42,874 nt of DNA from Bacteroidaceae bacterium (GTDB lineage: Bacteria > Bacteroidota > Bacteroidia > Bacteroidales > Bacteroidaceae), in NCBI GenBank assembly GCA_017483605.1, contig JAFUWG010000045.1:1-42874 (forward strand), read 5' to 3'. The position numbers and the translations under genes were made by a program. This document shows, piece by piece, positions 5,435 through 9,846 of this stretch (its first letter is position 1; each line of letters starts with the position of its first letter). A model generated the notes under the pieces. That model did not search any database, was not told where the DNA came from, and worked only from the letters and a program-made list of their open reading frames with translations.

Positions 5435-5500
5435 GCTGTTAGTATGCTTTCTGGTTCGATGTTTTTTTGCTTTAGAGGGTGCAATGAATGTCCTCGCCAT

Positions 5501-5531
5501 TTGGTGGTTCCGATATTTTTTCTTATCTTTG
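5501..5531 (+). promoter_or_regulatory. Bacteroidetes-type promoter, plus strand (upstream copy)
   Basis: TTG at 5501-5503, a 20-base spacer and TATCTTTG at 5524-5531 match the Bacteroidetes -33/-7 consensus. Initiation near 5538 would give the TPR/AraC gene a leader of about 260 nt containing the 21-bp repeats. Confidence 0.6.
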
Positions 5532-5579
5532 CATCACGAATTTGGCGAGCGGCAAACACCTCCCTTCCGTTTCTGTTTG

Positions 5580-5610
5580 CAAATATACTCACTTTTTTCG
5601 ACACGTCCAA
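5580..5610 (-). promoter_or_regulatory. Bacteroidetes-type promoter of the HU-like gene, minus strand
   Basis: Read on the minus strand: TTG (5610-5608), a 20-base spacer and TATATTTG (5587-5580). Initiation near 5573 gives the HU-like gene a leader of about 140 nt. It faces the plus-strand promoter at 5501-5531, so the two transcripts would overlap by about 35 nt. Confidence 0.6.
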
Positions 5611-5615
5611 ATTCC

Positions 5616-5699
5616 ACCTTTCAAATCTTTTCCTGATTTCATCAAATCCAAGGCTGACACCACCGAATCCAGCCCTGATTCCATCGAATCTGTGCTTGT
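5616..5699. repeat. Four degenerate 21-bp tandem units
   Basis: Units end at 5636, 5657, 5678 and 5699 and share the core (T/C)(C/A)(A/C)TC(A/G)AATC-N5-CTGA. They lie between the two plus-strand promoters in the regulator's leader. No gene is seen in 5435-5778 apart from these sites. Confidence 0.6.
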
Positions 5700-5741
5700 C
5701 CCGAAGCACGTATGCCGTCATCATTTTTCCACGCACCGTTT

Positions 5742-7368: not shown

Positions 7369-7403
7369 AAAAATCTTCCACACGTTTTGAAAAAATCTTC
7401 CAC
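7361..7403. repeat. 21-bp direct duplication spanning the regulator's stop codon
   Basis: Two identical 21-bp copies at 7361-7381 and 7383-7403 (period 22), each starting CGTTTTGAAAAAATC. The first copy contains the TGA stop at 7366-7368. Confidence 0.9.
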
Positions 7404-7410
7404 CACCGAA

Positions 7411-7443
7411 GCCATCGACGTTTTGAGCGTCGGTGGCTTTTTT
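7411..7443 (+). terminator. Intrinsic terminator between the regulator and MACPF genes
   Basis: Stem GCCATCGACG (7411-7420) with CGTCGGTGGC (7428-7437), ten pairs including one G-U, loop TTTTGAG, then TTTTTT. The MACPF promoter's TTG lies in the loop, so terminator and promoter share DNA. Confidence 0.85.
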
Positions 7444-7453
7444 CTTACCTTTG
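7423..7453 (+). promoter_or_regulatory. Promoter of the MACPF lipoprotein gene
   Basis: TTG at 7423-7425, a 20-base spacer and TACCTTTG at 7446-7453 are an exact consensus match. Initiation near 7460 gives a leader of about 47 nt to the ATG at 7507. Confidence 0.75.
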
Positions 7454-7506
7454 CAATACTTTAGAAGAACAATGCTAACCAATACTTTAACTAAAACCCT
7501 AAATCA

Positions 7507-9846
7507 ATGAAAAAGAAATTTCAGATTCTGACCATCGCCTCGCTGGCGATGATGACAGCCGTGCTGACAACCGGCTGTAGCGATGACGACGACAACAACA
7601 CGCCGCTCGACCCCTCTGAGGTGGTGGAAGAAGGCGCTGAGGACATTGCCGATGGCGTGATGTATCGTGTGGTGCGAGCAGACAGCCTCGACCAGTTTAA
7701 GATGCCCCTCAAGGTTCTGACCAAAGTGGACATCACAGCCGAAAAGAACGACTACTACGGTGCGAAAATCGTGGAGGAGAACGGAACAAAGTATGTGGTG
7801 CCTGTGCAGAAAAAGGCACAGGACAAGCCGCTGGTGCCAGTGCGTGTGAAAGTGTCGCCACGCACCAATCCAGAACTGGGCCGCAACGTCTTCCTGCTGT
7901 TCTACAACCCCGACGCTGTGCCCGCCAGCGCCAAGACGCGTGCCTCGACTGCGGACAATGTCTATCGCCGGTGGATTGGTCGCCCCATGAACTACTGGCA
8001 GGGGCTAACGCCTAAGTCGGACAAGGTGATTATCAGTTATGATGACATCATCACTCTTGGCGACACACTGCTGGTGGAGACTCCGCCACAGGTGAAAGAG
8101 TTCTGTGTGGAATATTCGGGCACGACCTGTGAGGAGACTACCCATGCCTTTGCGGCAAACGTGGGTGTGTCATGGAAAACGTCACGCCAAAGATTGTTGG
8201 CAACTCCCGCTGCCAACGACGGACCAGTGGTATCGGATGGGTTGTGGGAGGCTGTTAAACCTGCAAACAAGGCTAAAAGTGGTACACTTGACTTTGGTGT
8301 AGCAGGCTCGTTCAATACCAGCAATAGTTATGAATACTATATCAATATGTATCGCAATCAGTTGATGGATGTCGCACTGAATATGAGCAGATTCGAAGCG
8401 AATGACAACGGAGGCATTCCCGATGCGGCTTTGTTGTGGAAATTGACCAACAAAGATTTCCGCAATGCGATTGAGGCAGTAAAAGACCCGAATACTTTCA
8501 ATACGACCACCTTCTACAACTCGTGGGGAACAGATGTGATTACCCAAGGACGTTTTGGTGGATGCTACTACTATGTGTACGGACGTCGAGAGAATGCCTA
8601 CGAAACTTCTGTTGATGTTGACGCTGTTGCGAACTTCAAGAAGACTTACCCAAACAGTGTGACTGCTAATGGTCAAAACCAATGGCTGTTGATATTCCAA
8701 CTTAAAAACTCTGACTTCGTCTCCAGCAGTGCTTCTGCCACTTACAACTACGACCATTACTATGAGGCTTCTCGTGCTCAGAAGTTTGAATTGACCGTGG
8801 GTGGTAACCTGCACACGGCTAACGATGTAAGTACTTGGATTAGTGGTTTCTCTGACAAGAGCAATTGGCAACTCATCAGTTATCGTGTGGGCGATGACGA
8901 CCCCACATACTCTACAGACGATTTTGTGAGTGGACAAGCCTTGCCAGCAGATGGTCCTTACACATATCCTATCGACCAGTACATCTACAATATGGCAGAG
9001 GGTTTTGAACTGTCTCTCGGCTCAGAAGCACTGCCATTGGACAAGGAGCAGATAGCCAAGTGGAAGAAGATTGCACAGAAACTTGCCGATGCACGTGTTG
9101 ACTACATTGCCAGTCATGCACTGCCTCTGTATGAGAAACCACGTCTGGTCATTGCCGATTTCATGATGAAGAACGGTGACAACGGAAACCAAAAAGGCGA
9201 CCCCAATCCGTTTATCGCTGAAGATCCACGCGAGGCAGGAAAATACCGCATCTACTATCCAATGATGGCACATCCTCAGAACGCACCAATCGATCGTGGC
9301 TATGCTTTTGAATCGTCACAATCTACCTATGCTACTGACCCTACGGATAGTAAAGATGAATATTGGTATTATGCACTGGCAAGTGAAGATGACTGCACAG
9401 GCATTGTGGACATTATCTTCCATAATAAAAATAAAAAATACTATGAAGATCGTGGCGATAATGCACAAGAAGCACATCCTAACTTATGGATTAATAATAA
9501 TGTGGTGAAGGTTAAATATTTCGATGCAGAGTCAGATGATGCCAAAGACAAAATAACAGCCATCGCATTGGTAGAGCCAAATAAAAAGTCTGTTGACACC
9601 GACCACATCTACGCCTGCACTGGAGGCTCTGAGTTGAAGAGAAGTGCAACTCAATCGGAAATAAGAAAGTGGGAGGATTGGTGGAATCAGGAAATGAAAG
9701 TCTCAGATAATGACTTTGATGAGTACTGGTATGAAGGTGGCATGGATAATCCGCACGAATTCATCCCTGTCTATAGCACGAAGACTTTACCGATTGACCG
9801 TGTGAGCGAAAAGACGATTTGCCATCCACTGAAGTGGGGACAATAA
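7507..9846 (+). CDS. Surface lipoprotein with a MACPF (membrane attack complex/perforin) signature
   Basis: A 779-residue predicted pore-forming protein. It starts with a lipoprotein signal peptide (TAVLTTGC, Cys24), and the cysteine is followed by SDDDD, the surface-export signal described for Bacteroides lipoproteins. Residues 340-352 read WGTDVITQGRFGG, fitting the MACPF signature (Y/W)-G-(T/S)-x-(V/F/Y)-x6-G-G. Flanking alternating polar/hydrophobic and Asp/Asn-rich segments are compatible with the MACPF core at roughly 190-560, and an extra C-terminal domain of about 200 residues follows. In Bacteroidales, secreted MACPF proteins (BSAPs) kill related strains, which is the leading inference for this one. 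No adjacent immunity or receptor-like outer-membrane gene is visible. Base composition falls to AT-rich after about 8270 and most strongly at 9420-9600, unlike the 5' third, suggesting mosaic origin. It is preceded by its own promoter and the TPR/AraC regulator. Confidence 0.82.
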   Translation: MKKKFQILTIASLAMMTAVLTTGCSDDDDNNTPLDPSEVVEEGAEDIADGVMYRVVRADSLDQFKMPLKVLTKVDITAEKNDYYGAKIVEENGTKYVVPVQKKAQDKPLVPVRVKVSPRTNPELGRNVFLLFYNPDAVPASAKTRASTADNVYRRWIGRPMNYWQGLTPKSDKVIISYDDIITLGDTLLVETPPQVKEFCVEYSGTTCEETTHAFAANVGVSWKTSRQRLLATPAANDGPVVSDGLWEAVKPANKAKSGTLDFGVAGSFNTSNSYEYYINMYRNQLMDVALNMSRFEANDNGGIPDAALLWKLTNKDFRNAIEAVKDPNTFNTTTFYNSWGTDVITQGRFGGCYYYVYGRRENAYETSVDVDAVANFKKTYPNSVTANGQNQWLLIFQLKNSDFVSSSASATYNYDHYYEASRAQKFELTVGGNLHTANDVSTWISGFSDKSNWQLISYRVGDDDPTYSTDDFVSGQALPADGPYTYPIDQYIYNMAEGFELSLGSEALPLDKEQIAKWKKIAQKLADARVDYIASHALPLYEKPRLVIADFMMKNGDNGNQKGDPNPFIAEDPREAGKYRIYYPMMAHPQNAPIDRGYAFESSQSTYATDPTDSKDEYWYYALASEDDCTGIVDIIFHNKNKKYYEDRGDNAQEAHPNLWINNNVVKVKYFDAESDDAKDKITAIALVEPNKKSVDTDHIYACTGGSELKRSATQSEIRKWEDWWNQEMKVSDNDFDEYWYEGGMDNPHEFIPVYSTKTLPIDRVSEKTICHPLKWGQ

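Follow-up and report, generated by a model that had tools for sequence, protein, structure and literature searches.

What is the role of a surface lipoprotein with MACPF features that is encoded directly behind a membrane-bound AraC-type regulator, and is its production governed by this neighbour? The question is raised by a locus on contig JAFUWG010000045.1 of a Bacteroidaceae bacterium, analysed over its full 42,874 nucleotides (the window; this is contig C27 in an assembly of 3.06 Mb and 81.5% completeness). Here, two plus-strand open reading frames (ORFs), encoding the regulator and a 779-aa lipoprotein, are flanked on both sides by minus-strand genes. The first-pass annotation of this DNA had proposed a candidate antimicrobial pore-former with its own regulator. 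We lean towards reading the locus as an accessory cassette of two genes that provides a pore-former which is inducible and anchored to the surface.

A remote member of the MACPF family

Comparison of sequences supports a relationship of the window lipoprotein to the MACPF family. Since Pfam alone is borderline (PF01823, 23.5 bits in a six-frame genome scan, above the cut-off of 21.5, with the whole protein scoring lower, as weighed below), relatives were gathered. These comprise a paralogue in the same genome (L005, 34% identity), L006, L007, L009 and L008/L010, as well as two tandem genes in genome G322 (L017) and the members in G580, G668 and G641 (L026-L028). L025/G519 and L006 are one contig, and the 8,913 bases of L008 match L010 with 100% identity; with each of these pairs counted once, 10 distinct family loci remain. 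Nine of them have a MACPF gene, and L009 encodes the C-terminal domain alone.

The short signature alone is not beyond chance, and membership was therefore assessed with profiles. The family profile, built from 10 full-length members (L009 omitted), was aligned with a profile of seven other Bacteroidales PF01823 proteins, namely those of the 13 non-family matches for which the whole frame was available. The alignment spans the residues listed in Table 1 with a probability of 98.3% and an E-value of 1.6e-14 at an identity of 15%; WGTD is aligned with YGTH and the GG of both profiles coincide, as do another GG and a PI further on. The regulator profile, used as a control against the same seven proteins, reaches a probability of 0.1% (E 0.49). 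Because the seven-protein profile itself matches insecticidal MACPF proteins, complement and perforins with E-values down to 1.2e-43, it serves as a true MACPF yardstick. Against all PDB sequences the family profile retrieves 10 entries at E<=1, nine of them complement C8, C9 or C6 (best E 0.016) and the tenth a transmembrane protease (E 0.59). The L010 protein on its own exceeds the Pfam cut-off (23.4 bits, with YGTHVIMQGTFGG) and that of G580 lies slightly below it (21.0 bits); an NCBIfam search returned no match for the MACPF protein. The relationship suspected in the first-pass annotation is thus borne out by the profile alignment, and the WGTDV-x6-GG signature that it had placed at residues 340-352 is present. 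G341, F350 and G351 are invariant in all 10 members and the second G is found in eight. In terms of the general signature Y/W-G-T/S-H/D...GG, a form which we in part assume and in part take from the alignments, the window branch carries WGTD where the L010 and L028 branches keep YGTH, followed by GG.

The N-terminus consists of a signal peptide, a lipobox cysteine (C24) and the stretch SDDDD, both of the latter as noted earlier. The lipobox cysteine is shared by 10/10 family members and the acidic stretch by most. Judged from these residues, the protein would qualify as a surface-exported lipoprotein with a lipoprotein export signal (LES), as expected of a Bacteroidales secreted antimicrobial protein (BSAP). 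Behind the MACPF domain follows a separate conserved C-terminal domain. A VIA search with its model gave three rows, all of them MACPF proteins and including Plu-MACPF/Mpf1Aa1 (2QP2), Mpf2Ba1 (8B6U) and perforin-2, while families outside that listing may also be similar. The model suggests a beta-prism-like fold, and the domain is a candidate for target binding. At L009:5890-6843, a lipoprotein of 317 aa consists of the family C-terminal domain alone, with an insertion, and its gene follows directly on that of a multi-helix membrane AraC regulator (L009:4534-5802); it could be a blocker or immunity form, or a remnant.

A recurrent membrane regulator

The regulator is a recurrent partner of the MACPF gene. 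At six of the 10 family loci (window, L005, L007, L026, L027 and L009), the gene immediately 5' of the family member, in the same orientation, encodes a membrane AraC-type regulator, although the independent cases are fewer than six since L005/L007 and L026/L027 are close pairs. At L006 the regulator gene is also upstream, separated by at least one ORF (4168-5850), and at L010 it lies upstream beyond a transposase gene, with a weak HTH_18 match (18.1 bits against a cut-off of 33.6). By comparison, none of 12 non-family MACPF loci (of the 13 matches, retrieved with larger flanks) has an upstream regulator; two of these, L109 and L115, had less than 600 bases upstream, and L111 has an AraC-type gene downstream on the opposite strand.

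The window regulator combines a TPR match with an HTH_18 domain (58.7 bits; Pfam E in Table 1) and, by hydropathy alone, one strong hydrophobic segment (residues 337-355 of the 529-aa form). It thereby has both features of an AraC-type transmembrane regulator, HTH_18 and a transmembrane segment, in agreement with the adjacent TPR/AraC membrane regulator described in the first-pass annotation, and the Pfam search gave no kinase or receiver domain match. The longest ORF begins at 5488; the start is most likely the ATG at 5797, which opens the signal-peptide-like MKQWTKVLLGCLTMLLAAC, or that at 5779. The sensor part varies: judged by hydropathy only, the window and L006 regulators have TPRs and a single strong hydrophobic segment ahead of the HTH, and those of the other loci several hydrophobic segments.

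Two side observations concern the family loci. At L006:3716-5997, the stretch just following the regulator seems, by eye, to be repeated as the leader before the MACPF start, with a lipoprotein gene (4168-5850) enclosed by the two copies. At L017, two tandem divergent family members (6118-8433 and 12757-15066) follow a gene which we take to be GroEL-like; no AraC gene is present and the tandem genes are surrounded by GTGCGCACG palindromes with a 22-bp period.

A candidate operator between the two genes

Between the regulator gene and the MACPF promoter, the direct repeat CGTTTTGAAAAAATCTTCCAC occurs in two exact copies, 22 bp from start to start. Repeats with the same period are found at the equivalent position of the paralogue L005, TAGCCAAA(T/A)TGTTACC, and of L007, AG(C/T)CAAATTGATACC. 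At each of these three loci, 0/1000 dinucleotide shuffles score as well. Moreover, the window unit has only two sites genome-wide, both at the locus, with a tolerance of up to three mismatches. The L005 unit is exact at its own two sites alone, with nine further sites at two mismatches compared to six for the reversed control. When the genome was searched with these units for a regulon including an immunity gene, the window unit gave none and the paralogue unit only the said two-mismatch sites.

AraC-type hybrid two-component systems (HTCS) of Bacteroides have predicted motifs that are direct repeats with a 20-21 bp period (16+5, 12+9, 14+6; PMC3878776), and the spacing of 22 bp thus fits an AraC-type operator. 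Repeats with a period of 20-23 also recur elsewhere in the 318 kb scanned, some as long arrays, and spacing alone was therefore not taken as proof.

After the repeat position a hairpin with a T-run is found in the window (-22.7 kcal/mol), L005 (-25.9), L007 (-15.4) and L006 (-14.0), and a TANNTT(T/C)G box follows these hairpins. From this arrangement it is likely that the regulator terminator and the toxin promoter are packed together, with the putative operator just upstream. The dedicated consensus promoter reported earlier is present 5' of the MACPF gene as TTTG-N20-TACCTTTG; the consensus behind both promoter calls is one which we assume to be of Bacteroidales type. Separate from the candidate operator, a palindrome-rich repeat GTGGTNTGA-CTCA-CACC with a 23-bp period occupies several genome sites (window 41163-41227; L005:7019-7086 and 12770-12838).

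Distribution and insertion sites

Presence of the family is patchy. The full-length protein was found in one of 81 genomes, its own (45 of the 81 belong to the same genus, own included). The family-level profile search matched 5/399 genomes, of which two are real by coverage (own and G322); the matches in G128, G211 and G251 were dropped as they cover the signal peptide or an N-terminal stretch alone in short frames. At order level 7/393 genomes were matched and five are real, with G759 and G787 dropped for N-terminal matches alone in short frames. Universal presence, named in the first-pass annotation as an outcome that would speak against its reading, is thus not observed between species.

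Both cassettes of the genome were placed against their flanks in sister genomes. On the left of the window cassette lie a PD-(D/E)XK nuclease gene and an HU-HIG gene and on the right a UvrD-type helicase gene, convergent to the MACPF gene, all on the minus strand; the nuclease and helicase are presumably AddB- and AddA-like. The helicase protein is matched in 44/45 genus genomes, own included, in two of them weakly. In the stretches downstream of the helicase from 20 other genus genomes, the nuclease gene is directly next in eight, separated by ~1.6-1.9 kb with one long ORF in seven (L033, L037, L044, L047, L048, L049 and L051; the ORF tested, in L037, is CotH) and not within the stretch in five; the cassette is in 0/20. 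For the paralogue site, a PyrH-like gene present in 42/45 genus genomes, own included, served as flank. Among 20 such stretches, nine lack the cassette and have 118-227 bases between Sel1 and CarB, as measured from the tblastn ends, three stop at once at a contig border and eight lack one or both flank genes; again the cassette is in 0/20. As both flank tests came out without the cassette, two homologous, unlinked cassettes occupy two unrelated sites of this genome at which the relatives have no such cassette.

The searches lend no support to an origin from a phage or plasmid: no family match came from plasmid and phage collections, from a profile scan of viral contigs, or from scans with a single sequence of both genome and viral contigs, and PADLOC, like NCBIfam, gave no match. 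Separately, L008:1-8913, a complete contig binned as Prevotella sp. SUG549, is the stretch identical to L010:3497-12409 on a Parabacteroides faecalis contig with the cassette and transposase genes, which reflects either recent transfer or mis-binning.

The features of the window locus are collected in Table 1. The left bound of 5435 given in the first-pass annotation has to be moved, as it falls within the opposite-strand HU-HIG gene (4799-5500, minus strand, Pfam E 3e-18). This gene adjoins the cassette, is found in 0/20 of the corresponding genus stretches and may have arrived together with it.

Table 1. Features of the regulator-MACPF cassette, in coordinates of the window.
Feature	Position	Strand	Remarks
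Promoter-like TTTG-N19-TACCTTTG of regulator gene	5741..5771	+	sequence read, coordinates checked; consensus assumed
Membrane AraC regulator gene	5797..7368	+	signal-peptide/lipobox-like N-terminus, TPRs, one transmembrane helix, C-terminal HTH_18 (E 7.2e-16)
Direct repeat, first half CGTTTTGAAAAAATCTTCCAC, candidate operator	7361..7381	+	overlaps regulator stop codon
Direct repeat, second half CGTTTTGAAAAAATCTTCCAC	7383..7403	+	
Hairpin and T-run, likely regulator terminator	7408..7440	+	-22.7 kcal/mol; overlaps -33 box of next promoter
MACPF gene promoter TTTG-N20-TACCTTTG	7422..7453	+	TTTG 7422-7425, TACCTTTG 7446-7453
MACPF-family surface lipoprotein gene	7507..9846	+	779 aa
Signal peptide, lipobox C24, SDDDD export-signal-like stretch	7507..7593	+	
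MACPF domain, residues ~154-521	7966..9069	+	profile-profile alignment with seven Bacteroidales MACPF proteins
MACPF signature W340-GTDV-ITQGRF-GG352	8524..8562	+	aligns with YGTH...GG of relatives
C-terminal domain, residues 546-779, beta-prism-like, candidate target-binding	9142..9843	+	
Hairpin and T-run 3' of MACPF gene, terminator facing helicase gene	9857..9906	+	-31.4 kcal/mol

Comparison with known systems

MACPF surface lipoproteins of Bacteroidales and membrane AraC regulators are each already known; it is their combination that appears new. Full-text literature searches did not find a regulator, a direct-repeat operator and a beta-prism MACPF protein together in print, though supplementary tables may list such proteins unnamed. 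A close likeness is to BSAP-1 to -4, which share an export-type lipoprotein signal, a MACPF domain, a separate C-terminal domain and an accessory distribution in Bacteroidales; this likeness is drawn from shared features, and the alignment at 15% identity is with other Bacteroidales MACPF proteins. The window family differs by its beta-prism-like C-terminal domain, 'prism' being a word that PMC12853789 does not use in its main text, and by a linked membrane AraC regulator; neither PMC12853789 nor PMC4999547 has a word starting with 'regulat' in the main text. In addition, the genes of BSAP-1 and BSAP-2 adjoin a resistant version of the target (PMC4999547), whereas no resistant target is recognised next to the window cassette. 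We have therefore filed the system as BSAP-like and not as a BSAP. Lipoprotein signal peptides have been reported for Bacteroides MACPF proteins, not for other bacterial ones (PMC2954219).

Plu-MACPF/Mpf1Aa1 and Mpf2Ba1 have a MACPF domain followed by a C-terminal beta-prism, which the C-terminal domain of the window protein appears to resemble. Their chains have 481-498 residues; the window protein has ~130 further residues before the MACPF domain and no DLN motif. The two-component CDCL pore-formers are antibacterial members of the MACPF/CDC superfamily from the same phylum, with an immunity lipoprotein, BcdI (PMC11169675), whereas the window has a single MACPF gene and no immunity lipoprotein was recognised in its transcription unit. 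With HTCS and other transmembrane regulators with an AraC-type HTH, the window regulator shares the fusion of a membrane sensor to an AraC-type DNA-binding domain, and its candidate operator is a direct repeat close in period to their predicted motifs (PMC3878776). It differs in having no kinase or receiver match, a TPR sensor (or a multi-helix one in relatives) and one apparent target gene in place of a polysaccharide locus.

Discussion

According to the reading that we slightly favour, an outside cue would alter the membrane regulator, whose TPR sensor probably lies outside the cytoplasm and would be linked by one transmembrane helix to the cytoplasmic AraC-type DNA-binding domain. This domain, on the 22-bp direct repeat, would switch on the neighbouring promoter alone. 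The lipoprotein pathway would carry the product to the cell surface, the beta-prism-like C-terminal domain would recognise a target on a neighbouring cell, and the MACPF domain would oligomerise into a pore. Other bacteria are the probable victims, whereas eukaryotic cells (protozoa or host cells) and the absence of any killing role are both unlikely, to a similar degree.

Several findings weigh against this reading. The whole window protein scores 19.4 bits with Pfam MACPF, below the cut-off of 21.5, the L017 pair scores 13.5 and 15.2 bits, and for the proteins of L005, L006 and L007 the Pfam MACPF model gave no match with E<=1. Structure prediction of the full-length protein (five sequences) gave no confident model (mean pLDDT 35.6); that of the C-terminal domain is moderate (pLDDT 60, pTM 0.69), Foldseek alone found no match for it at E<=0.001, and the window protein lacks the DLN metal motif that Mpf2Ba1 has. 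L017 and L028 have no regulator. The repeat is weak or absent at L026, L027, L006, L009 and L010, where 60, 132, 126, 420 and 950 per 1000 shuffles, respectively, match its score. Among the neighbours at the window (HU-HIG, PD-(D/E)XK and UvrD-helicase genes), no gene for a receptor, an immunity protein or an altered target was recognised, and the first-pass annotation had already remarked that no receptor or immunity gene is adjacent; the paralogue has CarB-, Sel1- and amino-acid-kinase (PyrH-like) genes as neighbours. Finally, several Bacteroides MACPF proteins were without antimicrobial activity when tested (PMC4999547), and architecture alone thus does not prove a toxin. These inactive proteins, together with the insecticidal protein among the nearest C-terminal folds, are the reason why we give some weight to a eukaryotic target or to no killing role.

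The same pore-former and regulator might be aimed at eukaryotic cells, whether protozoa of the rumen or gut or cells of the host. The C-terminal folds closest to the model belong to MACPF proteins that include the insecticidal Mpf2Ba1, and two of the five contigs of one relative search (L006, L007, L009 and L008/L010) are from the ruminant forestomach (goat reticulum and roe deer rumen). On the other hand, perforin-2, matched as well, is an antibacterial pore-former. BSAPs, moreover, are described so far in competition within species only (PMC12853789), which makes other Bacteroidales the most likely victims and a eukaryotic target improbable.

Comparably improbable is a role of the lipoprotein in adhesion, sensing or transport without lytic pores. 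Besides the inactive Bacteroides proteins and the lack of a recognised immunity gene nearby, the WGTD of the window branch in place of YGTH would suit such a role, and adaptation or cross-membrane transport has been proposed for a Bt MACPF protein with the publication of its structure (PMC2954219). However, the L010 and L028 branches keep YGTH, and the patchy, accessory distribution suits antagonism better than a core surface function.

We consider it less likely still that the regulator is a chance neighbour controlling other genes while the MACPF gene is constitutive. The two family loci without a regulator and the weak repeats at several loci are in line with this, as is the frequency of transmembrane transcription regulators in Bacteroidota (PMC10269533, whose main text does not contain the word AraC). 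Yet the regulator is directly upstream at 6/10 family loci compared to 0/12 control loci, and at both cassettes of the genome a direct repeat with AraC-like spacing, unique in the genome, lies between the two genes. A false MACPF call, with an unrelated surface lipoprotein carrying WGTD-GG by coincidence, is very improbable: the sub-threshold Pfam score of the window protein, the lack of a Pfam match in three relatives and the poor full-length model are outweighed by the profile-profile match over the whole domain, the Pfam scores of L010 (above the cut-off) and G580 (just under it) and a C-terminal domain that matches MACPF proteins only.

A wider version of the favoured pore-former reading is tentative and rather doubtful. 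The cassettes may be sense-and-strike units that combine an interchangeable sensor (TPR here, multi-helix at the paralogue), a private operator and a beta-prism MACPF protein, several of them being fired separately by different cues, with the L009 protein as a blocking or immunity form.

Implications for Bacteroidales

BSAP-like pore-formers influence which gut strains coexist, and our literature searches gave no account of the way in which their expression is induced. The linked membrane regulator and the unique candidate operator make both induction and the outside cue directly testable. Together they also provide a marker for remote MACPF weapons beyond the reach of Pfam. The family adds a beta-prism-like C-terminal domain to the surface-anchored MACPF proteins of Bacteroidales. 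If the cassettes are indeed separately triggered sense-and-strike units, one Bacteroidales cell could hold several pore-formers, each answering to its own trigger.

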